33,088 nt of DNA, from positions 1 through 33,088 of the IMG/VR virus record IMGVR_UViG_3300048924_000588; one strand, given 5' to 3'. Below the pieces are notes generated by a model that did not search any database, had not been told where the DNA came from, and saw nothing but the letters and a program-made list of their open reading frames with translations. This document shows positions 16,759 through 32,390 of this stretch, one piece after another. Position 1 is the first letter of the stretch, and each line of letters opens with the position of its first letter. The DNA comes from a virus. A program made the position numbers and the translations under genes.

Positions 16759-16938
16759 ATGACAGAATTAAATATATTTCCTTGTCCGGTTTGTGGTGGG
16801 GGAGGGGAATTGTCTACTGGTCAAATTGGGCCAATGAGAGCAATAGCGTATTACATTGAATGTATGTCTTGTTCATCCTCAAGCAATATGAAGTTTGGTA
16901 TTGAAAATGCAATAGAAGCATGGAATAAGCGAGTATGA
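16759..16938 (+). CDS. Lar-like restriction alleviation/zinc-ribbon protein (59 aa)
   Basis: Has FPCPVCGGGGELS, then YIECMSCSSSS, and ends with AIEAWNKRV: two CxxC pairs and the EAxxAWNxR tail typical of Lar-family phage proteins. Rac prophage Lar modulates type I restriction; many relatives are untested. GTGGGGGGG precedes the ATG. Overlaps the next gene by ATGA. Confidence 0.75.
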   Translation: MTELNIFPCPVCGGGGELSTGQIGPMRAIAYYIECMSCSSSSNMKFGIENAIEAWNKRV

Positions 16939-20717: not shown

Positions 20718-21051
20718 AACACCTCCTCAAAATCAAATTTTACCAAAATTTGTCCAATTGATGTTTGGTAATAATGACGAGCGTTACATCTGCTTGCACA
20801 CAGACTTTCCCACGGAAATTGTGGATAACTGTCAATGTGAAACGGTTGATATCTGTATTATTTATAATCCGTGATTTATATTAAAAGTGGGATTTTAAAA
20901 CCTATATTTGTCTTGTACTGTATTCAAAGTGGTGTTAAAAGTTAAAAAATTGATGTTTTTTGTCGTTAAAACCCATTTTTAGTGTTTTTGCCTCTGTTCA
21001 CATTATGGCGGTTTTGTTAATCTATTTAACAATGACCTACGGAATGACGAA
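20718..21051. other. 334-bp gap before the lysis genes: GTGG elements and a dyad
   Basis: No convincing gene; one 37-codon ATG frame (20761-20874) lacks a ribosome site. Two copies of the GTGG element, AAGTGGGA (20885-20892) and AAGTGGTG (20927-20934), are exactly 42 bp apart; the first sits in a TTAAAA/TTTTAA hairpin (20881-20898). A perfect dyad TTGTTAA/TTAACAA (21014-21032) lies just before the endolysin ribosome site. Probable late regulatory region. Confidence 0.55.
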
Positions 21052-21579
21052 ATGAGTAATTTTGATACTGCAATCATAACGGTATTAAAGCATGAGGGCG
21101 GATATGTGAACGATCCGCAAGACCCTGGTGGCGCCACTAATTTTGGTATCTCTTTGAAGTATCTGCATAGCTTAGGAGATTTATGGAGTCATTTTGACTT
21201 TGATTTCGATGGCGATGTAGATGCAGAAGACATTAAAAAGATGACTAAAGAAGAAGCGATAGAAATTTATCGTCAGTACTGGTGGGACAAGAATCAATAC
21301 GAGCGCATTCTCAATCAGCAGATTGCAACCAAGGTATTTGACTTGGCGGTAAATATGGGATCTGTGCAAGCCCATAAATGCATGCAGCGTGCAATTCGAT
21401 CTGTGTCAGGCGACTTGTTAGTTGAAGATGGCATTTTAGGATCTAAATCTATTCAGGCATTAAATACTGCGAACCCAAATGAATTATTAGCTGCGTATCG
21501 AAGTGAGGTCGCTGGATTTTATCGAAGTTTGAATAAGCCTAAATACATTAATGGTTGGCTGAATAGGGCATACGAATGA
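21052..21579 (+). CDS. GH108-type endolysin (lysozyme) with Ca-binding loop
   Basis: 175 residues. Peptidoglycan muramidase that releases virions. Seen: LKHEGGYVNDPQDPGGATNFG with catalytic E15 in EGGY, QYWWDKNQYERI, KVFDLAVNMG and the C-terminal peptidoglycan-binding part (VEDGILGSKSIQALN). Residues 51-60 (DFDGDVDAED) form a dockerin/EF-hand-like calcium loop, present in many relatives. No signal peptide, so it needs the holin encoded next, whose ATG overlaps its stop. Confidence 0.93.
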   Translation: MSNFDTAIITVLKHEGGYVNDPQDPGGATNFGISLKYLHSLGDLWSHFDFDFDGDVDAEDIKKMTKEEAIEIYRQYWWDKNQYERILNQQIATKVFDLAVNMGSVQAHKCMQRAIRSVSGDLLVEDGILGSKSIQALNTANPNELLAAYRSEVAGFYRSLNKPKYINGWLNRAYE

Positions 21580-22058
21580 GTGTAGAAGCTCTTGCAAAGA
21601 CAGTATCGCAGTATGCTCCTATTCTTGGGTCGTCGTTGCTTGGCCCTGTTGGCGGAGTTTTTGGGAGTTTGATTGCCGCACTATTTGGCGGGGCTAAAGA
21701 AGATCCTGCTGATTTAGTTAATAAGATTACGGCTGATCCTGATGCAGCGGTAAAGCTGAAGACATTAGAGCTTCAGCACAAAGACAATATTTTAAATATA
21801 GACAATAAAAATTATGCGACTGAGGTTGATGATCGCAAAGATGCTCGTGCGATGAATATCACATTGCATGATCACATGCCAAATATTCTCGCTCTTATCT
21901 TCATCGTAATTTATGCAGTCATGCAGTATCACATAGTAAATAATCCTGGAAATCAAGACGATGTGATCAGTGCCAGGGTGCAAGATATTTTTGTAATGAT
22001 TATTAGCTTTTATTTTGGCAGTGCTCACGGGAAGAAAAAACAAGAAGAAGGTAAATGA
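21576..22058 (+). CDS. Holin, three-TM type (GTA holin-like)
   Basis: 160 residues with hydrophobic segments at about 14-40 (LGSSLLGPVGGVFGSLIAALF), 103-121 (ILALIFIVIYAVMQYHIV) and 130-148 (VQDIFVMIISFYFGSAHG), and the conserved ADPDAAVKLKTLEL and DRKDARAM middle block of the 3-TM phage holin family. Forms the membrane hole that gives the endolysin access to the wall. Overlaps genes on both sides by ATGA. Confidence 0.88.
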   Translation: MSVEALAKTVSQYAPILGSSLLGPVGGVFGSLIAALFGGAKEDPADLVNKITADPDAAVKLKTLELQHKDNILNIDNKNYATEVDDRKDARAMNITLHDHMPNILALIFIVIYAVMQYHIVNNPGNQDDVISARVQDIFVMIISFYFGSAHGKKKQEEGK

Positions 22059-22600
22059 TGCCAGCAAAAGAAGAAACAAGAGGCAGGAATACTCTATATA
22101 CAGAAGAAATGGGTGATGAAATTTGCCAAGTGATTTCTGAAAGTACAAAGGGCTTAACCCCTCTGTGTATTATGAATCCCCACTGGCCAAACCCAAGAAC
22201 AATTAGAAATTGGATTTTGGATAATGAAGAGTTTGGAAAGAAATACGCGCGAGCAAAGCTAATTCAAGCCGATGAAATAGCTGAGGAATGTATAGATATT
22301 TCAGATGATAGTTCTCATGACACCCTTACGATTGAAAGAGATGATGGCTCTATTAAAGAAATAGCAAATACTGAATTTATAGCTAGATCAAGATTAAGGG
22401 TAGACACGCGAAAATGGTATGTATCTAAATTAGTTCCGAAAGTCTATGGCGATAATTCACAAAAAATCATCTATCAACAAAAATTCGAAGATTTAAGTGA
22501 GGAAGAACAAGTTAATTATATTGAATCTCTTCCTGCGGATAAAAAATTAAAACTATTTAGCGAAGTAGCTAAAAAAATTAAAGCAAGCAAGGGAAGTTAA
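22055..22600 (+). CDS. Terminase small subunit
   Basis: 181 residues. DNA-recognition subunit of the packaging motor. Begins with an HTH-like helical region (PRTIRNWILDNEEFGKKYA), then AKLIQADEIAEECIDISDDS and the hallmark RSRLRVDTRKWYVSKLVPKV followed by YGD, as in the Sf6-type small terminase family. Two ATGs in tandem (22055, 22058) are possible starts. It lies well apart from terL, which follows the fibre cluster. Confidence 0.87.
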   Translation: MMPAKEETRGRNTLYTEEMGDEICQVISESTKGLTPLCIMNPHWPNPRTIRNWILDNEEFGKKYARAKLIQADEIAEECIDISDDSSHDTLTIERDDGSIKEIANTEFIARSRLRVDTRKWYVSKLVPKVYGDNSQKIIYQQKFEDLSEEEQVNYIESLPADKKLKLFSEVAKKIKASKGS

Positions 22601-22603
22601 CTT

Positions 22604-22741
22604 ATGAGCGCTGCGATAAATTTGCTTTTGCTTTTTAATGATATTGAAGCGCCACCTGTACCGCCAACTGGCGAAAGACGTATTACAGATGATAACAACA
22701 TAAGAATTACAGACAGCGGTGATACGCGAATTACAGACTGA
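22604..22741 (+). CDS. Small protein with RITD repeats (45 aa)
   Basis: Ends in three copies of an RIT-D motif (RRITDDNNIRITDSGDTRIT), a periodic pattern also seen in short phage structural or tail-associated proteins. Starts 4 bp after terS, with GGGAAG upstream. Function unknown; a beta-prism or fibre-adaptor strand is possible. Confidence 0.55.
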   Translation: MSAAINLLLLFNDIEAPPVPPTGERRITDDNNIRITDSGDTRITD

Positions 22742-22751
22742 GGTCACACAT

Positions 22752-25340
22752 ATGGCTGATATAAAAATTGAAGGTTTAGATCCAATTACCGACCAGTCTC
22801 CAACAGATTTATATGAGATTAGTCTAGATGGTGCTGGGTCTAGAAAAGAAACTAGACAGCAACAAATTACTTATTTAGAGGATAAGTTTATTGCTCAAGG
22901 TGGCTCAGGTTCAGTTGACCAATTAGATGCGAATGTGATCAATGTTAATGATAAATTAAATCTGATCGATTATTCAGATACGATGAGCTACGTTTCTACA
23001 TCCGGTGATGTTACTAATAATGGCCAAGTCATTCAAGCGAAAAGAAATATTGAAGACAGTATAGGTCTAAATAGTGGAGATCAGCTTAATGTAACTCCGG
23101 GAACATTTACCTATACTGGTAATTTTAGTATGGCACCTTTTATTACAATAAGAGGACAGGGCTATCTAAATACTATTTATGATGTAACGGGAAATATTGG
23201 ACTAAATGATTCTACTTGGACTAGTTCATCAAATCCTGAATTTACAATACGTGATATTACCTTAATCGCAAGTGGAACAATTAATTTCACTCCAACATCA
23301 GTCATATCTGGGTCTACGCAAAGATTTTACAATGTTAATCACTTGAGTGCTGCAACATATGGCAATCTAACTAATTTAAATATTGATGGATGCATATATG
23401 GGGATATAACTATCTCCGATGTATTAAATTGTAATATTAAAAATACATTAATAACTAATGGCATTACGATAAATATAAATTCTACTAACAATATTTATAC
23501 ATTTGAAAATGTTGATTTCAACAACCAAACCGTCAATGTAGTTATTAGTGGTCCTTATGATCCTATATTTAATTTCATTAACTGTAAAAATAATGTTGTA
23601 TTTAATTATGATGATAGCTCTTTTGGATATGCCGCAATAGCTAATTTTGATTTTCCAAGTTGGCCTCTGAATGGATATCAAGATTTTGGAGGCCAGCTTA
23701 TAGCAAAACAAACGACAGAATGGCCTTTGGTAGATACTACCAGGGGATTTGGTAACTCATACCAAGGTGGTAACAATTTTTTCTGGAATCAAACAAATAG
23801 TATATTTGCAGCTGGTCTCAATGCCCATACCGTACTTGGCACCAACCAAACTCTGCTTGGTAAATCGACATCAAGCAAGAGCCATGTGTTTGTTGCAGCG
23901 GAGGCAACTAATAGTGACTTTTTCCCAGCACAAGATAATCAATTTGTGGTTAGATATTTAAATGGTTTCGGGTTCGGTACTGGGGATCCTAAAGCCAATT
24001 TCCATGTTAAAGCCAGCAATAGTGGAAGTATGTTATTTTCTGCTAGTTCATTAGTGGCTGATGCAGATATTTCTAACTCAGAATTAAACCCATATATCAC
24101 AACTACTAATTTGATATTCAAAGGTAAATATAGCGGTGGTGGAGTATTTAATTACAATTTAAATTCATTACCTGGATACCCATTACTTGCAACAAATAAT
24201 GTTTTTGCTGGACAAAACACATTTGTCTCTCCAATAGTACAAAATTCAGTAGTAATTTCATTAACAGGTAACTCTGGAACAATTAGTGCAGCTCAATTAA
24301 CCGCTGGTGTTTTAACATTTGCGACTACTGCTAATGCAAGCTGGGCTCTTCCTACAGCAGCACAAATGGATTCTCAATTAGGAGCTCCTCTAGCTGGTGG
24401 AGGCATGCGTGGTATTGAATTAAGAAACCCTAATAATTTCACATTAACAATTACAGCAGGAACGAATTTCAATCTTGGATTAATGTCTATAGCGGGAACA
24501 TTAGTCATACCTGCTAATACTTCAGTCACTGTAGGATTCACTAGGGTTGATGCAACACCAACTTATAGTCTCTATGGTAACTCAAATAATCCTCAAGGTT
24601 CAGGGGATGTGACCAAAGCAGGTGATAACGTATTCACCGGTCAGAATACTTTTATGAGTTATTCATTGAACAATGTAACTCCAGTAACGCTTACTGCTAA
24701 TGGTGGTACATTGACCGTTGGGCAACTATTCTTTGGTAACACCCAATTCATTCCAACAGCAGATTGCACATGGACATTACCAACGCAGACATCTATTGAT
24801 GGGGCCTTAATTGGCGGCTCTCCTGGGTTTGGTATTGGTTTTGACAATATCATGTTTACGAATAGTAGTAATTTCACTGTGACTTTCGTTGCTGGGACAG
24901 GGACAAATTTCAACGGTATGAGTTCACCAGGTATATTGATCTTAGGACCTGGTGCTAGTGTCACATTGAAGATAACCAAAGATAATACACCGGCCTATGT
25001 GTATTCGGGTGCATCATTTGGTTCTGGATCATATGCAATATTCAACGTGACCGGATCTTCTAAAACATTAGGATTAATTGATTCTAATTCATTACAGAAT
25101 TGTAACAGTGCTACTGCACAAACAATTACATTCCCACTCAATTCAAGCGTTGCATTTCCTATTGGAACTAGAATAGATGGGGCCCAAATTGGGGCTGGAC
25201 AAACTACTCTAGCAGCAACCGGCGGTGTAACATTGCAAAGTCAGCTTGGTAATTTAAAAACTGCCTTCCAATATGCAGCATGGACTGCAACTAAGACAGC
25301 GACTGATACATGGTTAATCGTGGGAAATCTTTCTACATGA
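22752..25340 (+). CDS. Tail fibre/receptor-binding protein, modular with internal duplication
   Basis: 862 residues from the ATG at 22752 (GAGG upstream; a longer GTG frame at 22719 overlaps the small gene). N-terminal MADIKIEGLDPITDQSPTDL is a phage virion-attachment start. Residues about 80-290 are N/T/S-rich with a regular beta-helix look (TINFTPTSVI, NLNIDGCIYGDITI). Two tandem modules begin NVFAGQNTF and NVFTGQNTF and each ends in a GTNFN-containing beta domain. Likely binds host surface sugars. Unusually placed between the terminase subunits. Confidence 0.83.
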   Translation: MADIKIEGLDPITDQSPTDLYEISLDGAGSRKETRQQQITYLEDKFIAQGGSGSVDQLDANVINVNDKLNLIDYSDTMSYVSTSGDVTNNGQVIQAKRNIEDSIGLNSGDQLNVTPGTFTYTGNFSMAPFITIRGQGYLNTIYDVTGNIGLNDSTWTSSSNPEFTIRDITLIASGTINFTPTSVISGSTQRFYNVNHLSAATYGNLTNLNIDGCIYGDITISDVLNCNIKNTLITNGITININSTNNIYTFENVDFNNQTVNVVISGPYDPIFNFINCKNNVVFNYDDSSFGYAAIANFDFPSWPLNGYQDFGGQLIAKQTTEWPLVDTTRGFGNSYQGGNNFFWNQTNSIFAAGLNAHTVLGTNQTLLGKSTSSKSHVFVAAEATNSDFFPAQDNQFVVRYLNGFGFGTGDPKANFHVKASNSGSMLFSASSLVADADISNSELNPYITTTNLIFKGKYSGGGVFNYNLNSLPGYPLLATNNVFAGQNTFVSPIVQNSVVISLTGNSGTISAAQLTAGVLTFATTANASWALPTAAQMDSQLGAPLAGGGMRGIELRNPNNFTLTITAGTNFNLGLMSIAGTLVIPANTSVTVGFTRVDATPTYSLYGNSNNPQGSGDVTKAGDNVFTGQNTFMSYSLNNVTPVTLTANGGTLTVGQLFFGNTQFIPTADCTWTLPTQTSIDGALIGGSPGFGIGFDNIMFTNSSNFTVTFVAGTGTNFNGMSSPGILILGPGASVTLKITKDNTPAYVYSGASFGSGSYAIFNVTGSSKTLGLIDSNSLQNCNSATAQTITFPLNSSVAFPIGTRIDGAQIGAGQTTLAATGGVTLQSQLGNLKTAFQYAAWTATKTATDTWLIVGNLST

Positions 25341-26215
25341 TGAGAAATAGGCTAGGCACTGTGGCGCAAGCAATACCTCAGATTCCTTTGGACTTGGGGT
25401 TTGCTTCTAATGCTGGCGCTTGGTCGGTACGAAAGATAAGGACTGCATATTCGGGATTAGCAATAACCCTACGTAGATCAAGTGATAATGCACAGACAAA
25501 TGTTTCATTTGATTATTTCGGTGGTATTAGCGCTTCATCATCGGTCAGTGCGGGAGGTAATCTTGTTACTTGGGCTGGTTCAGATACTTTATTTGCTGTT
25601 ACTTGGTATGATCAATCTGGTCTTAGTTATGATCTTACACAAGCAACCGCTGGTAGCCAATGGACATTCGTATTGAGCGTTCCTTCACTTAATGGCAAGT
25701 CAGTCTTACGCAATTCAGATGGCACAAGGACAATGACAGTATTGGGAAGTGTTACATTCAAAAATCCTCATGATATATCGATCAGCACTGTTTTCGGAAT
25801 AGCCAATATAAATAGTATCGTGTTTAGAATAAATGATAGTGCAACTGGTCGGATGTATGTTAGATATTCTGCTCTTAGCTCTGGAAGTATGAGATTAAGA
25901 GTGTATAACAGTGGTAATGTCGTCAATATTCAAACTAGTTTCGGCTTTACTACTCTTACTTCATATACTCAGATGACATGGACTGTAGTTAATGGCGCAT
26001 CTCCAACGGTGATTAGTTATTTGAATACATCCATTTTTTCTCCTGAAACCAGCGTGAATGCTTGGACTAATATAGATATTAATACAGTTCAATACACATT
26101 GGGTGTTGGCACTTATACTGGAGATATTAGTGAAATAATATTATTTGATTCGGCGTTAAATACTAATCAGTCACAAGCAGTTAATTGCAGCCAGAAAAAT
26201 TATTTTGCTACATGA
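25337..26215 (+). CDS. Tail protein with arabinofuranosidase B catalytic-like/LamG domain
   Basis: 292 residues. Contains AWSVRKIRTAYSGLAITLRR, FDYFGG, LFAVTWYDQSGLSYDLTQAT and SLNGKSVLRN, as in the alpha-L-arabinofuranosidase B catalytic-like domain found in many phage tail proteins, followed by a jelly-roll part (DISEIILFDSALN). It likely binds or trims a surface polysaccharide. ATG overlaps the fibre stop (ATGATG at 25337). Confidence 0.75.
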   Translation: MMRNRLGTVAQAIPQIPLDLGFASNAGAWSVRKIRTAYSGLAITLRRSSDNAQTNVSFDYFGGISASSSVSAGGNLVTWAGSDTLFAVTWYDQSGLSYDLTQATAGSQWTFVLSVPSLNGKSVLRNSDGTRTMTVLGSVTFKNPHDISISTVFGIANINSIVFRINDSATGRMYVRYSALSSGSMRLRVYNSGNVVNIQTSFGFTTLTSYTQMTWTVVNGASPTVISYLNTSIFSPETSVNAWTNIDINTVQYTLGVGTYTGDISEIILFDSALNTNQSQAVNCSQKNYFAT

Positions 26216-26222
26216 GGTCTTA

Positions 26223-26510
26223 ATGATAACTATATTGAAGTTTAATTCATTTGAAGATGCACAATCAAAACTTAATGAATATGACGATTTAGCTAGAAGT
26301 CCAACTTCATCGCCAGATTTTACTTTGGTAAATATATACAAACATCAAACTTTAGAAAGATGGTGGTTTAATGGTTCTAGTTGTATTGAAAATGGCGGGT
26401 TAGGTCGACAACAAATCACGGATGATATTGCAATGCAAAATACCTTTGAGGTTGCTACGTATTCCGATCTCATTGGCCTAGGATATTTGCCCCAACCTGA
26501 AGATGATTAA
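26223..26510 (+). CDS. Small tail-associated hypothetical protein (95 aa)
   Basis: Not recognised. ATG at 26223 follows GAGGTCTTA. Acidic, with KLNEYDDLARSPTSSPDFTL and a WWFNG motif; ends YLPQPEDD. Placed right after the tail protein with a LamG/arabinofuranosidase domain, so a fibre chaperone or minor tail part is possible. Confidence 0.55.
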   Translation: MITILKFNSFEDAQSKLNEYDDLARSPTSSPDFTLVNIYKHQTLERWWFNGSSCIENGGLGRQQITDDIAMQNTFEVATYSDLIGLGYLPQPEDD

Positions 26511-26553
26511 TCATATGAATATAATCCAGTTTGACTTCAAAAGGAAAAATTAA

Positions 26554-26940
26554 ATGAGCCTTAAAGAGCAGTTTTTAGTTGCTGTTGTGAATGAAATTAA
26601 TTTAGCTAAAACAGCTGTTACATTTGAAGCAGGAGCTAGTCAATCATCTGTTTTTAATTGCGGGGCTACTCCGCCAGCAGAAATGTTTTTTCCTGCTAAT
26701 TGGACAAGTTGTAATGTTTCATTTCACGTTTGTAAGACTCCAGATGGAGTTTTTGTTCCAAGAACTAATTTTGATGGTACTGCTTTAGCGGTAGCAACAG
26801 CGGCATCAACAGCAACGCCGACGCAGCCGTCTATGTTTCACTCTACACTTTTTATGAAGTTGGTTTGCTCAACTCCTCAAGTGAATGCATGTATTGTAGA
26901 CCTAGGATTAACCCCAATATATCAAGGCATTCATAATTAA
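26554..26940 (+). CDS. Conserved phage virion-associated protein (128 aa)
   Basis: Contains TFEAGASQSSVFNCGATPPA, MFFPANWTSCNVSFHVCKT and LFMKLVCSTPQVNACIVDL: an FNCG/PPA/FPANWT/SFxV pattern repeatedly seen next to phage terminase and fibre genes, predicted beta-sandwich. Probably a minor head or tail decoration protein. AAGGAAAAA precedes the ATG; its stop overlaps terL by one base. Confidence 0.65.
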   Translation: MSLKEQFLVAVVNEINLAKTAVTFEAGASQSSVFNCGATPPAEMFFPANWTSCNVSFHVCKTPDGVFVPRTNFDGTALAVATAASTATPTQPSMFHSTLFMKLVCSTPQVNACIVDLGLTPIYQGIHN

Positions 26941-28430
26941 TGTCTACTGCTCGTTTAATTTTAGAAGCTTTCGAATTACTTGAAGAGGAAGAGCTAGATA
27001 AAGAGCGAGCGGCAAAGTCATTGGCTGAATTTGTAAAGCAAGCATGGCATGTAATAGAGCCGGGAGCGCCCTATGTTCATGGTTGGCATATTGATGCGAT
27101 TTGCCAGCATTTAGAAGCGTGTACGTCTGGTGAGATTTTGCGTCTTGTGATAAATGTTCCGCCAGGCTGCATGAAAAGCTTAATCTTAAATGTATTTTGG
27201 CCTGCTTGGGAGTGGGGGCCTAAGAATATGCCTCACTTGCGCGGACTGGGTGTATCGCATAAGCAAGAGTTGGCAATGCGAGATAATATTAAGCTTCGTC
27301 GCTTAATTGCTAGCAAATGGTATCAGGCGCGATATCCGCATCTTGTTTTAACAAGAGATCAAAATTCTAAGAAAAAATTTGAAAATACAAAATTTGGCTT
27401 TAATGAAATTATGGCTTTTGGCTCAATCACGGGATCTCGAGGCGATAGAGTTAGAATTGATGATCCTCTCTCGGTAGAAGACGCTCAATCAAAGATTATT
27501 TTGGCAACTAGAGAGTTTTTGTTTAAAGAGGCTATTCCTACTCGCGTAATTAGCCCTGAGTTTTCAGTTATTGCCATAATAATGCAAAGATTACATGAGA
27601 ATGATACTACAAAGCTCGCGCTTGATATGGGTTATGAGCATTTAATGCTGCCGATGGAGTTTGAGCAAGAAAGAAGATGCGTAACTAAAATAGGTTTTTC
27701 TGATCCTAGAAGCGAAGATGGTGAGCTTTTATTTCCTGCCAGATTTCCGAAGCATGTTGTCGAAAGAGATAAGCAATCTTTGGGTAAATATGGCCATGCT
27801 TCTCAAAACCAACAAAGGCCAGCTCCACGCGAAGGTGCCATTATTAAGGTTGATTGGTTACAAAATAGATTTCCTGTTCAACGTGATGCGTATGGAAGAA
27901 TTATTCTTAATTCATACAAAGAAATTTATCAATCTTGGGATACTGCATTTAAAGAAGGCCAGGAAAATGATTATTGTGTTTGCACAACATGGGGATTGAG
28001 AGATAACGGGTTTTACTTAATTCATCGATTTAAGCAGAAGTGTGATTTCCCAACTCTTGAGAAACAAGCAATTGAGTTAGGTAATTATTTTAACCCTAAT
28101 CAAATTTTAATTGAAGATGCTGCTAGCGGGCAAAGTTTAGTTCAAGCAATGAAGAAACGGACAAGATTGCCTATAAAAGCGGTGTCTGTTGCTCAAGATA
28201 AATCTGCAAGGCTCAATTCTGTATCTGGGTATTTTGAAGGGGCTAGAGTGTTTTTGCCTAGCAATGAAGTGTGGGTGGATGAGCCTGATGGTTACGCGTA
28301 TGAGCTTACTACTTTTCCGGCGGTAAAACATGATGATTCTGTTGATAGCACTTCACAATTTTTAATAGAAATCGCACTTAGAAGAGAGGCTTCTTTAGGG
28401 GTTATAAATGGCTCCCTGATGGGGCGATAA
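26940..28430 (+). CDS. Terminase large subunit
   Basis: 496 residues: ATPase motor plus headful/cos nuclease. Walker A variant PPGCMKS (74-80), Walker B VRIDDP (171-176), coupling motif IIMQRLHEND (213-222), then the RNase H-like nuclease with D334 in SWDTAF, E392/D393 in IEDAASG and D465/D466 in KHDDSVDS. All motifs are intact. Start overlaps the preceding stop by one base. Followed by a 289-bp gap, so it may end a transcription unit. Confidence 0.95.
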   Translation: MSTARLILEAFELLEEEELDKERAAKSLAEFVKQAWHVIEPGAPYVHGWHIDAICQHLEACTSGEILRLVINVPPGCMKSLILNVFWPAWEWGPKNMPHLRGLGVSHKQELAMRDNIKLRRLIASKWYQARYPHLVLTRDQNSKKKFENTKFGFNEIMAFGSITGSRGDRVRIDDPLSVEDAQSKIILATREFLFKEAIPTRVISPEFSVIAIIMQRLHENDTTKLALDMGYEHLMLPMEFEQERRCVTKIGFSDPRSEDGELLFPARFPKHVVERDKQSLGKYGHASQNQQRPAPREGAIIKVDWLQNRFPVQRDAYGRIILNSYKEIYQSWDTAFKEGQENDYCVCTTWGLRDNGFYLIHRFKQKCDFPTLEKQAIELGNYFNPNQILIEDAASGQSLVQAMKKRTRLPIKAVSVAQDKSARLNSVSGYFEGARVFLPSNEVWVDEPDGYAYELTTFPAVKHDDSVDSTSQFLIEIALRREASLGVINGSLMGR

Positions 28431-28436
28431 ATTCAT

Positions 28437-28528
28437 AAGTGGGGATTATTGACCATTTTTGTATGTAAATTCTGCCTAAAGTGGGGTTCTAATCCTTATA
28501 TTAGCCTTAAACATATGTAAAAGTGGGG
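28437..28528 (+). repeat. Three AAGTGGGG elements exactly 42 bp apart
   Basis: AAGTGGGG occurs at 28437, 28479 and 28521, spaced 42 bp each (four helical turns), in the 289-bp gap before the portal gene. The sequence between elements is mostly unrelated but contains CC followed by AT-rich TATAT-like stretches. Same core as in the gaps before the endolysin, scaffold and capsid genes. Rest of the gap holds only two ATG frames of 13 and 15 codons. Confidence 0.7.
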
Positions 28529-28719
28529 AATATATTTATTTGAGAGATGGTTTTGATGTGAAATACTTTTTTTTTGGTTTATTATATTTCAATATTTTAT
28601 CTCATTCCTTTTAAAGGATCTCAGGATGTCACAATATTATTATAAACTCTTGGAAAAGATTGATTGATTATGAGCAGTGATCTTAGTGAAACAAATAATC
28701 AATTAAAGGATGGTTAATA

Positions 28720-30282
28720 TTGGAAGCCTCTCTGCATTCAAGTAATCATTATACACCCATGAGCGCTGGCTCAAATTCTGCAGCTAGCTCTGGGTTTATT
28801 GACAGGTTTTCTTCTAGATTTAAACTTAGATTGGACCCAGATTGGAGTTATCGCCAAAAAAAGCTTTTCATACTCAAAAAGTTTCTCGATGGCTCTATCT
28901 ACGATAATCTTTCGCCTTTTCATACTGAGTTCACGGGTAATGACAATAATGGGCAATATATTACGTTAGCTAATCGACGACCATCTGTTACCTATAATCT
29001 TTGTAAAATTATCGTAGAAGAAAGTATTTCTCTACTATTTGGTGATGACCACTTTCCTGTAATTCGTTGCAATGAATATGAAAAAACTTCTACATTTTTA
29101 CAATACATAACTAGAACGTGCGGGTTAAAAAAAGTCATGTTGAATGCTGCGCGTGTTGGTTCAGTGGGTAGTTCTTGTATTGCCATTAAGGTGTTAGAGG
29201 AAAAATTTTATTTTGAGGCGTTAGAAACCAAAAATCTAACCCCAATTTTTAATAAAATGAAGCCTGATGAATTAGAAGAGGTGATCGAAAAAGTCAAAGT
29301 TGATGGCAGTACCCTAATATCCTTCGGATATAATATCTCTAAAGATGATTTGAATAAATTCTATTGGGTGAGGCGTGACTGGACTAAAAATGAAGAAATT
29401 TTTTATCAGCCTTATCTATGTGAGAAGGATGAGGATAGAGATTTTTCTCCAAACAAAGATGAAGAAAAATCAGCTACTCATAATTTTGGATTTGTTTCAT
29501 TGGTTTGGATAAAGAATCTACCTTCCGCAGCGATGATAGATGGTGCTTGTACTTTTGAAAGTATATTGGATATAAATATTGAGATTGATTACCAGTTAAG
29601 TCAGCTTGGTAGACTAATTAAATATAACTCTGATCCAACTTTTGTAATTAAAAATCCTTCTGCAATGGAGGGTTCTAAGCTAATTAAAAGTGTTGGTATT
29701 CTTAATCTAGATGAGAGTGGTGATGCATACTATGCGGAAATTTCTGGTAAATCATCAGAGCCCGCAATGAATTATGTAAAGATGTTACGTGAGTACGCTC
29801 TTGAGGTTGCAAGGGGTAATAGAACTAACCCTGATAAGATTAATGGAGTGCAATCTGGTAAAGCAATTCAAATGCTTAATTCATCTCTCATCTCGCTTGT
29901 TAGTGAAATGCGTATTACTTACGGCGATTATGGGTTATTACAAATATATAAAATGGTTTTAGACATCACAAATAATGCGAAGATAAAAGTAGATTATGGG
30001 GATTATCCTCCAGATAATAATGACAAGTGTGAAGACAATTTAGTGTTAGACTGGCCTGATTGGTATCCTCTTTCAGCTCAAGAGAAATATCAAGAAGCTC
30101 AAACACTAGCTAGCTATAAACAAAATAACATTCTTAGTACTAAGACTGCTGTTGAATCAATTGCTGATGAATATAATATTCTAGATATACCTAGTGAATT
30201 GAAAGATATTGAAAAAGAAAAAAAGCAAGAATATACTTTATCCAATAGCAATAGTAATATAGATAACAACAGTTCTAAGTAG
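28720..30282 (+). CDS. Portal protein (SPP1 gp6-like)
   Basis: 520 residues. Dodecameric head vertex through which DNA is pumped. Seen: FILKKFLDGSIYDNL, NRRPSVTYNLCKIIVEESIS, SLLFGDD, then FTFESILDINIEIDYQLSQL-type core (TFESILDINIEIDYQLSQLG), GVQSGKAIQML and LVLDWPDWYPLS, in the order of Gp6-type portals. TTG start at 28720 is supported by AAAGGA 9 bp upstream; ATG at 28759 is the alternative. Followed by a structured gap, then the scaffold gene. Confidence 0.9.
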   Translation: MEASLHSSNHYTPMSAGSNSAASSGFIDRFSSRFKLRLDPDWSYRQKKLFILKKFLDGSIYDNLSPFHTEFTGNDNNGQYITLANRRPSVTYNLCKIIVEESISLLFGDDHFPVIRCNEYEKTSTFLQYITRTCGLKKVMLNAARVGSVGSSCIAIKVLEEKFYFEALETKNLTPIFNKMKPDELEEVIEKVKVDGSTLISFGYNISKDDLNKFYWVRRDWTKNEEIFYQPYLCEKDEDRDFSPNKDEEKSATHNFGFVSLVWIKNLPSAAMIDGACTFESILDINIEIDYQLSQLGRLIKYNSDPTFVIKNPSAMEGSKLIKSVGILNLDESGDAYYAEISGKSSEPAMNYVKMLREYALEVARGNRTNPDKINGVQSGKAIQMLNSSLISLVSEMRITYGDYGLLQIYKMVLDITNNAKIKVDYGDYPPDNNDKCEDNLVLDWPDWYPLSAQEKYQEAQTLASYKQNNILSTKTAVESIADEYNILDIPSELKDIEKEKKQEYTLSNSNSNIDNNSSK

Positions 30283-30322
30283 TAGCGTGGTGCGCACTAT
30301 AAAATTAAGTGGTGCTTAATTT
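30279..30322 (+). repeat. Two TGGTG-loop hairpins before the scaffold gene
   Basis: First: stem GCG/CGC around TGGTG (30288-30292), extended by GTAGT paired with ACTAT across one bulged A (30279-30300, one G-U). Second: eight perfect pairs, AAATTAAG (30302-30309) with CTTAATTT (30315-30322), around the same TGGTG loop. Loops are identical while stems differ. Centres are 22 bp apart. Confidence 0.75.
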
Positions 30323-30344
30323 AAATTAGAATTAAAAGGTAATT

Positions 30345-30869
30345 ATGACAGTTGAAAATAAAAACGCTGGTGATGAAGGTAAAGCTACAGTTAGCTCTGT
30401 TGATTCTCAGGCTGAAACACTTGAGCGCGATGTAAAATGGCGAGCAAAGTATTCAGCAAAAGCTGAGGAGGCTGAAAACCTTAAAAAGCAAGCTGAAGCA
30501 GAAAAGAATGATCTCCAAGCGAAAATTGATAATACTGTTAAGCAAAGTCAAGCGATGCAAAAACGTGTTATTGAAGCTGAGTTAAAAGCTCAAGCAGTGA
30601 CAGCTGGTCTGCAAGATCTTGATTTTTTAAAAATGATCGATGTTTCTACATTGAAAATTTCAGAAGATGGTGGTATTGAAGGTCTTGAGAAGGCAATAAG
30701 TGATTTTAAAGCTTCAAAGCCTGCATTATTTGCAGCTGAGAAGAAAAGTAGCTCATCTAAAAATGAAAAGCTACCTAATGATAATGAGAAAGAAAACGCA
30801 TTTGATGCTTTCAAAGTAACGGATGAAGAATACCGTGCTAAGAAATCTGAAATGTTCGGAGTTTATTAA
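30345..30869 (+). CDS. Capsid scaffolding protein
   Basis: 174 residues, very charged, helical (EAENLKKQAEAEKNDLQAKI, then AMQKRVIEAELKAQAVTAGL), with a flexible S/K/N-rich linker and a basic end FKVTDEEYRAKKSEMFGVY. This layout and the position between portal and major capsid genes match phage scaffold (gp20-like). Guides procapsid assembly and is then lost. AAAGGTAATT precedes the ATG. Confidence 0.85.
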   Translation: MTVENKNAGDEGKATVSSVDSQAETLERDVKWRAKYSAKAEEAENLKKQAEAEKNDLQAKIDNTVKQSQAMQKRVIEAELKAQAVTAGLQDLDFLKMIDVSTLKISEDGGIEGLEKAISDFKASKPALFAAEKKSSSSKNEKLPNDNEKENAFDAFKVTDEEYRAKKSEMFGVY

Positions 30870-30891
30870 GTAAGTATTTTTAAGACTATCC

Positions 30892-30950
30892 AGATTTGCT
30901 TGAGTGGTGCTTAAGTAAGTCTCGGCTCGTTGAAGTGGTGCTTCTCCGAG
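30892..30950 (+). repeat. Two TGGTG-loop hairpins before the major capsid gene
   Basis: First: up to 13 pairs with three G-U wobbles (30892-30904 with 30910-30922) closed by a TGGTG loop at 30905-30909. Second: GAAG (30932-30935) and CTTC (30941-30944) around TGGTG (30936-30940), with an outer CTCGG/CCGAG stem that competes with the first hairpin. Centres are 31 bp apart. G-U pairs argue for RNA-level structure. Confidence 0.72.
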
Positions 30951-30992
30951 GTTAAGTCAATTTATTGATTTTAACTTTTGAGGAGCAGACCC

Positions 30993-32390
30993 ATGTTCGG
31001 TCCCAATGGCAATTTATTAACAAACGCAATCCAAACAAATATGTTACAACGCGGTTTTATTGACCCGTTGATTAACGAGCTCGTATACAGAGAAATCTCA
31101 GACAAAGAAGAATTTGAAGGGAAATGGGGTACCACAATTACTAAGACCAGAATGGGCTTAATGATTCCCAATATGAACCCCCTTGATCCATCTACAAATA
31201 CAAACATTGATAATGGTTTGACCCCGATTACCTATTCTGATGAGCAATATACAGTAGGTATTGCGCAATATCCTCAACCTGCCCCAAATGTTAACTTGCT
31301 CGATAACGAAATTGCGATTGCAAATTTTGCTATGGCTAACTCTGAACGTTTAGGTGTTGCTCAAGCAACTTGTGTTGATCGACTTGCCAGAGGTGCATTG
31401 TTTAATGCATATATGTCTGGAAATACCTTTATTACTGTCGCTGCTTCAAGTGTTACGCAAAGAGTAGATGATACTCGAGGCTTTCAAACAGTGGTTATTT
31501 CTACAGCTGGTGTTGGTGGTACTGTAGTGCCAGTTAGTGTAAGTAATCCTTTAGCTGTATTTGTTAATGGCGTTGCTAATACTGTTACTGGTTTCTCTAA
31601 TGACGTATCTAATATTTCAACTACTGCCGCAACAGGCGGAACATCTGGGACAATTACATTAGGCACCACGGCAAGTACTACTGCAGGTCAGGCAGTTATT
31701 AGCGCATTTGCCCCCTTCATTGTTAGACCTAACGGCAGATCTACTAGCTTTGCTATTCAATCAACTGACTTGTTAAACATGAAATCAATCTTGGCAGCTG
31801 TTACTTATCTTAGAAACAATAAAGTGCCAAAGATTCGCGGTCGTTATAATTTATTTTGTAATGCAACCTCGATGAATCAATTATTTCAAGATCCAGAATT
31901 CCAGCTTTTAAACTCGACTCGTGGTGTTAGTGATCCTGTTTACAAGAATGCGGAAGTAACAGAGTTTTTAGACGTTAGAATGATCATGACCACTGAAACC
32001 TATGTGCAAGCTGCTGGTGCTGTTGATGGGAGTATCACTATTCCTCAGGGTATCGAGCGTCCCATCGTTTGTGGAGCCGGCGTTCTTGTTGAAGAAGTTT
32101 TCACGCAAGGTTTAGATGCGATTAAGAATTTAAATGGACAGTTGGGAATTGGCCAAGTTAGTCAAAGTGCAGGCATGCGATTAATGCTACCACAAGCAAT
32201 TTCAAAGATGGGTTTTTCATATTACATTCGTCCGCCTATTGATCGCTTGATGCAAATCATGTCGCAAACATCCAACTATGTTGGTGGGTTTGTGGTTCCT
32301 ACTGATACAACTACAACTTCTGCAATTATTCCTACAGCGAGCAATAAGTATTATAAGCGGGCTGTAGTTATTGAAACTGCGAGTGGTTAA
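30993..32390 (+). CDS. Major capsid protein
   Basis: 465 residues from the ATG at 30993, with GAGGAG upstream; the open TTG frame at 30978 is not needed. Begins MFGPNGNLLTNAIQTNML. Contains EFEGKWGTTITKTRMGLMIP, a Ser/Thr/Gly-rich insert (about 155-250, beta-rich, like an I-domain), RYNLFCNATSMNQLF and QGIERPIVCGAGVLVEEVF. Pattern fits a HK97-fold capsid of the P22/N4-gp56-like types. Downstream of scaffold as expected. Confidence 0.88.
   Translation: MFGPNGNLLTNAIQTNMLQRGFIDPLINELVYREISDKEEFEGKWGTTITKTRMGLMIPNMNPLDPSTNTNIDNGLTPITYSDEQYTVGIAQYPQPAPNVNLLDNEIAIANFAMANSERLGVAQATCVDRLARGALFNAYMSGNTFITVAASSVTQRVDDTRGFQTVVISTAGVGGTVVPVSVSNPLAVFVNGVANTVTGFSNDVSNISTTAATGGTSGTITLGTTASTTAGQAVISAFAPFIVRPNGRSTSFAIQSTDLLNMKSILAAVTYLRNNKVPKIRGRYNLFCNATSMNQLFQDPEFQLLNSTRGVSDPVYKNAEVTEFLDVRMIMTTETYVQAAGAVDGSITIPQGIERPIVCGAGVLVEEVFTQGLDAIKNLNGQLGIGQVSQSAGMRLMLPQAISKMGFSYYIRPPIDRLMQIMSQTSNYVGGFVVPTDTTTTSAIIPTASNKYYKRAVVIETASG

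Follow-up and report, generated by a model that had tools for sequence, protein, structure and literature searches.

Why does one short motif recur, in closely spaced copies, in four intergenic gaps of a single phage genome? The window studied here is the whole of a 33-kb virus record (33,088 nucleotides; IMG/VR IMGVR_UViG_3300048924_000588) with gene content of the temperate-phage type, in which host-type genes and then, by eye, an integrase-like gene occupy the left end. The genes that concern us are those for endolysin (from 21052), small terminase (22055; PF20901), large terminase (TerL; 26940-28430), portal (28720-30282), a head scaffolding protein (30345..30869, plus strand; phrog_194, E=1.4e-10; PF06810, E=2.4e-12), and the major capsid protein (MCP; 30993..32390, plus strand, with its ATG at 30993; phrog_1357, E=3e-13). 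A sequence-only reading had located nine GTGG-core sites in the gaps ahead of the endolysin (20885, 20927), portal (28437, 28479, 28521), scaffold (loops at 30288, 30310), and capsid genes (loops at 30905, 30936), spaced by 42, 42+42, 22, and 31 bp, and all of these positions and distances are correct. The window has 20 matches to the degenerate form RMGTGGKR versus 6.0 +/- 2.3 in shuffles, so single copies also arise by chance. The clustering within the four gaps is not chance, with 2, 3, 2, and 2 copies per gap versus shuffled means of 0.049, 0.031, 0.022, and 0.022 (P <=0.0005 each). However, the four sites flanking the scaffold gene are the only ones at hairpin apices; the five endolysin- and portal-gap copies are not, and share only the GTGG core with them. 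The nine sites are thus two unrelated features, a set of RNA hairpins and a set of spaced direct repeats.

The hairpins, all on the plus strand, lie in two pairs with the scaffold gene between them. In the scaffold leader, H1 (30285..30295, GCG[UGGUG]CGC) begins 2 bases past the portal stop codon, and H2 (30302..30322, AAAUUAAG[UGGUG]CUUAAUUU) ends 22 nt upstream of the scaffold ATG (30345). In the MCP leader, P1 (30892..30922) has a 13-bp stem with three G-U pairs and a UGGUG loop at 30905-30909, and P2 (30926..30950), 31 nt after P1, has a lower stem CUCG/CGAG, a 2x2 internal loop, and an upper stem GAAG/CUUC closed by a UGGUG loop at 30936-30940. The four stems drawn earlier (GCG/CGC, AAATTAAG/CTTAATTT, the 13-bp stem with three G-U pairs, and GAAG/CTTC) are therefore as described. 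The earlier suggestion of helical spacing does not hold for these sites, where the spacing is the size of an RNA hairpin rather than a phase of the DNA helix; it is constant across relatives at 21-26 nt and 29-32 nt, the latter being the P1-P2 distance in all eight MCP leaders measured.

Relatives of the window were collected by MCP. The closest (L091, MCP 77% identical) carries hairpins in the same gaps with all stems altered and loops of UGGCG or UGGUG, and five more distant phages (L085, L092, L093, L094, L096; MCP 49-61%) have the loop UGGA(U/C/A). Thus TGGTG, claimed as the constant loop, is indeed the loop of all four window hairpins, but across relatives the invariant part is UGG only; nor is the closing pair always G-C as proposed (G-C 30, A-U 4, and C-G 1 among 35 hairpins). 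The broader claim, that the loop stays constant while stems vary, holds over eleven phage records, in which the scaffold and MCP gaps contain 36 UGGNN-loop hairpins in 2,835 bases, compared with a mean of 0.96 and a maximum of 5 in 500 shuffles of those gaps. The density is 12.7 per kb in the two gaps versus 0.43 per kb in the rest, and TGG is by a wide margin the most frequent triplet at the start of paired 5-nt loops in these gaps (36, the next 7). Because the 36 were selected for at least three Watson-Crick pairs, part of the pairing counted in the covariation analysis follows from that choice; the fair comparison is with the shuffle and density controls, since the same selection was applied to them. 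With that reservation, the covariation score over 35 hairpins was 0.783, versus 0.208 +/- 0.031 when shuffled and <=0.196 when slid, and the three loop-adjacent pairs were formed in 100% of these hairpins with 14, 14, and 5 two-sided changes. Loss of the hairpins in related phages and shuffled sequence equally rich in them had both been named beforehand as grounds for abandoning the idea, and both tests came out in its favour.

A held-out set of four phages (L233, L239, L240, L241) was collected once the rule had been fixed, with the portal protein as sole criterion, and hairpins were found in the predicted gaps in all four. A covariance model trained without them placed eight of its ten matches in 62.7 kb at predicted sites; in the window it ranked the four hairpins first and did not rank any of the other five GTGG sites. 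Homologues of H1 are present in L093, L094, L096, L233, L239, L240, and L241, and in relatives the last UGG hairpin of the scaffold leader stops 13-30 nt short of the start codon, beside the Shine-Dalgarno sequence (SD). Two phages (L091, L092) have one standard scaffold-leader hairpin rather than two, and L085 has none. In the scaffold-MCP gap of L085 (3040-3272), the hairpin pair occurs in two tandem copies (four UGGNN hairpins), apparently a duplicated leader.

Searches against Rfam (4227 families) gave no match in the window, and none at E up to 1 for 30240-31010; corresponding leader places in L092, L094, L096, L103, L157, and L182 likewise had no match (for L103 9850-10010, none at E up to 1). 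An intrinsic-terminator test found no terminator-type U run after the stems of the window hairpins. Taken as sequence evidence, these results make it probable that the hairpins are a conserved cis-acting RNA regulator of phage head genes.

How such an element could act is suggested by the MCP leader, in which P1 and P2 are followed by an AU-rich hairpin, P3, and then the SD (GAGGAG, 30980..30985, plus strand). In minimum free energy (MFE) folds of nine MCP leaders, the SD is hidden in an extended P3 stem whose opposite strand in most cases contains the P2 3' arm. In the window this predicted OFF fold (30940..30986, plus strand) pairs the P2 3' arm at 30940-30947 (GCUUCUCC) with the SD region at 30980-30986 (GAGGAGC), enclosing P3. 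Because the SD-hiding stem uses the P2 3' arm, P2 must open for it to form, and the two folds are mutually exclusive. Further, the bases following the SD vary between phages in a way that matches each phage's own P2 arm: GCUUCUCC/GAGGAGC in the window, GUGUCUCCA/UGGAGAUAC in L091, AUCGCUUC/GGAGCGAU in L093, and GUCUUCG/CGGAGAC in L239. For the close clade, in a test limited to eight leaders, the duplex energy of own arms with own SDs was -91.7 versus a mean of -67.3 for swapped partners, a result matched by a fraction of 0.0004 of the 40,320 permutations. The P1 arms, the P2 5' arm, and coding sequence gave no own-specific signal for SD pairing (0.45-0.95).

The MCP leader therefore looks, in these models, like a two-state translational switch. 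The weakest part of that argument is what happens when P2 is forced in the model: the SD is clearly freed in L091, L093, and L094 (from 0 to about 0.6) and partly freed in the window (from 0 to 0.27), L239 (0.17), and L240 (0.31), but not in L085, L092, or L096. Forcing P2 costs 1-13 kcal/mol, so a binder must be strong or the folding kinetic.

The same architecture, a hairpin with an SD-pairing alternative, is found in 27 leaders from more distant phages, with MCPs about 35-45% identical. In that set the motif YYA(U/C)CG-NNNN-NNGRC-NNNN-ANG was picked without requiring pairing; all 30 of 30 motif sites were fully paired, versus 10.1 with arms shuffled, and over 412 kb the paired motif occurred 31 times, 30 of them in MCP leaders. 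Covariation was again high (0.631 vs 0.134), and none of 20,000 permutations gave SD pairing as strong as that of own partners. Several leaders, among them those of L244, L245, and L199, have tandem NNGRC hairpins 32-40 nt apart. By these sequence comparisons the NNGRC hairpin is the equivalent of the UGG hairpin of the MCP leader. The distribution of loop classes follows the MCP tree, on which the UGG class requires one change and the NNGRC class falls in the other main branch. Both are patchy: the NNGRC motif occurs in 28 of 152 distinct leaders and is missing from most Acetobacteraceae relatives, and two sisters of the UGG group (L095 and L243; MCP 52% and 50%) have neither UGG nor NNGRC hairpins, so the element is not obligatory. 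The sole NNGRC hairpin motif outside MCP leaders (L167:15443, AGCG[CTGAC]CGCT) possibly marks a second target gene.

In the mechanism we propose, a trans-acting factor would recognize the UGG loop. Bound to P2, it would stabilize the hairpin and free the SD of the MCP gene, turning MCP synthesis on; bound to the scaffold leader, the same factor would sit near the start site and block the ribosome, turning scaffold synthesis off. The scaffold leaders gave no own-specific signal in the own-versus-swapped test of SD pairing (0.39), and because the scaffold hairpin lies beside the SD without such pairing, a UGG binder would be expected to block scaffold while helping MCP. We infer the direction of control at the MCP gene, activation, from geometry alone. 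The scaffold protein is an attractive candidate for the factor, since it is encoded between the two pairs of hairpins and control of this kind would keep scaffold and coat in balance, but it is a guess; an alignment of the protein has a conserved basic segment around WRAKY, which is no proof of RNA binding. The complete scheme, a single factor (perhaps the scaffold protein) that acts on identical hairpins to turn scaffold off and capsid on and so sets the scaffold-to-coat ratio, is a tentative possibility.

A rather unlikely alternative is that control is by repression only: a head protein, either scaffold or capsid, would bind the UGG hairpins and block both genes, with the SD-hiding stem setting a low basal rate. 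The scaffold-leader hairpins do abut the start, and T4 gp43 represses its own synthesis through a conserved-loop hairpin about 40 nt before the start codon (PMC3014915). However, P2 lies 48-70 nt upstream of the MCP start, repression does not need a 3' arm specific to its own SD, and binding at P2 would oppose the stem that hides the SD. It is also improbable that the leader is a protein-free device, in which the SD-hiding stem would be an RNase III substrate, a thermosensor, or a kinetic delay that times MCP synthesis, with the hairpins as folding guides. The window, L091, and L093 do have a long OFF stem, as is typical of RNase III substrates, and P2 forms first during transcription, but a folding guide needs no invariant UGG or NNGRC loop, and the same loop is present in scaffold leaders, which have no SD-hiding stem. 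Binding of host CsrA/RsmA to GGA in hairpin loops ahead of late genes is very improbable: the UGGA(U/C/A) loops of L085, L092, L093, L094, and L096 contain GGA, but at homologous positions the loops of the window, L091, L233, and L241 are UGGUG or UGGCG, without GGA, and those of the distant relatives are NNGRC. GGA is thus not found in every loop, and CsrA/RsmA sites were rejected for the window. The remaining possibility, that all nine GTGG sites are one DNA-level late-activator site with incidental hairpins, draws on the GTGG core being common to all four gaps and above chance, but is highly unlikely and was rejected because it is contradicted by the hairpins' persistence as paired, covarying stems of changing sequence with G-U pairs, whereas the direct repeats are unpaired and recur beside terminase genes of unrelated phages.

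The preferred reading, a two-state MCP leader recognized at its UGG loops, has partial counterparts among known systems. Phage Mu Com recognizes a sequence in a hairpin that adjoins a translation-inhibition structure, and its binding exposes the mom start (PMC6483171). The present leader is similar in placing a late-gene hairpin beside an inhibitory structure that would hide the start. Here the sequestration of the SD in an inhibitory stem is a prediction, from the MFE folds and own-specific pairing. The hairpins adjoining that stem have conserved UGG or NNGRC loops on covarying stems. Unlike com/mom, where the activator is the small zinc-finger protein Com, the predicted targets are capsid and scaffold, the hairpins are tandem with invariant UGG or NNGRC loops, the P2 arm is common to hairpin and inhibitory stem, and no com gene was identified. 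The operator of T4/RB69 gene 43, a self-repression site that overlaps the ribosome-binding site, is likewise an upstream hairpin in which the loop is conserved but the stem can vary (PMC3014915), but the present leaders have two hairpins each and an alternative fold between arm and SD. The MCP leader resembles both systems in logic and is at most a candidate member of either. In P22 the scaffolding protein controls its own synthesis, and the scaffold level is regulated after transcription. The gene order portal, scaffold, coat is the same, but unlike the window phage, P22 has no such hairpin element; its genes 8 and 5 touch, leaving no leader, and homology of the arrangement was therefore rejected.

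To our knowledge, most of what is understood about how tailed phages balance scaffold and coat synthesis comes from the physiology of P22, with no RNA element defined, and in open-licence literature we found nothing relevant to a capsid-leader RNA switch. The UGG-hairpin leader looks like an undescribed RNA switch that times shell production: a compact, covarying element with a specific two-state model, found in phages of several proteobacterial groups and not in Rfam. It would provide a starting point for identifying a new RNA-binding protein and would open head-gene stoichiometry to experiment.

What, then, are the other five sites? The sequence-only reading had proposed a regulator coordinating lysis and head genes. 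Its post-transcriptional part, as control of the head genes, is the best reading, but a single regulator for all nine sites is not, since the endolysin- and portal-gap repeats form no hairpin, differ in consensus, fail the covariance model, and have counterparts that adjoin terminase genes in several unrelated phages. Three AAGTGGGG direct repeats (28437..28528, plus strand) lie 42 bp apart directly past the TerL stop codon, and two AAGTGG(G/T) direct repeats (20885..20934, plus strand), also 42 bp apart, lie upstream of the endolysin gene, a holin-like gene, and the small terminase gene; given the identical spacing, the latter pair may be a second copy of the same feature. A related spaced pair follows TerL directly, as in the window, in L092/L097; L004, L093, and L094 have no such repeats after TerL.

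When viral contigs were scanned twice for spaced AAGTGGGG repeats by unbiased pattern search, 22 loci were returned, or 14 after removal of duplicate, in-gene, and low-complexity cases. At five of the 14 (L211, L213/L219, L214, L218, L225), a terminase gene with database support is no more than about 150 bp away, and two more (L223, L226) lie beside a terminase-like or HNH-terminase cluster. At the five loci the repeats are about 42 bp apart and the small-subunit families differ (PF20901, PF03592, PF05119, or none). The pattern was found in none of 369 genomes of the class of G001, and plasmid searches for AAGTGGGG repeats gave no informative match. Because spaced repeats adjoin terminase genes in several unrelated phages, a putative DNA-packaging recognition site of the cos/pac type is the most likely reading, at an about even level of confidence. 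Like cosB and pac sites, these are direct repeats by terminase genes with a fixed spacing of about four helical turns; unlike them, one repeat is common to terminases with different small-subunit families. The feature may instead be a small mobile repeat. Ends of an IS21-type transposon were also considered for the AAGTGGGG repeats but are unlikely: the genes next to the phage copies inspected are for terminase, HNH, or unknown proteins, and by eye none is a transposase.

Other features of the window can be noted briefly. No close relative was found among the bacterial genomes searched, the portal protein had no match when used as a query against bacterial genomes, and the MCP had no match by sequence to solved structures. 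At the integrase end, 2620-2700 contains sequence like a tRNA 3' end (GGGATCGAACC), a probable mark of the attachment site, and ARAGORN reported no whole tRNA over the window. At 16759-16938, preceded by a GTGGGGGGG run, lies the gene for a zinc-ribbon protein of 59 residues that belongs to the Lar restriction-alleviation family (PF14354, E=9e-10). The TerL-portal gap holds only a truncated reading frame (28617-28719) whose start, ATGTCACAATATTA, resembles that of a complete gene (about 220 codons) occupying this position in L004 (2277-2948); the window may have lost a head-decoration gene here. In the corresponding gap of L088 (4300-4625; the same record as L096) lies a gene for a protein with a HINT/intein-like end (...YNIEVADSDNYIANGILVNNC).
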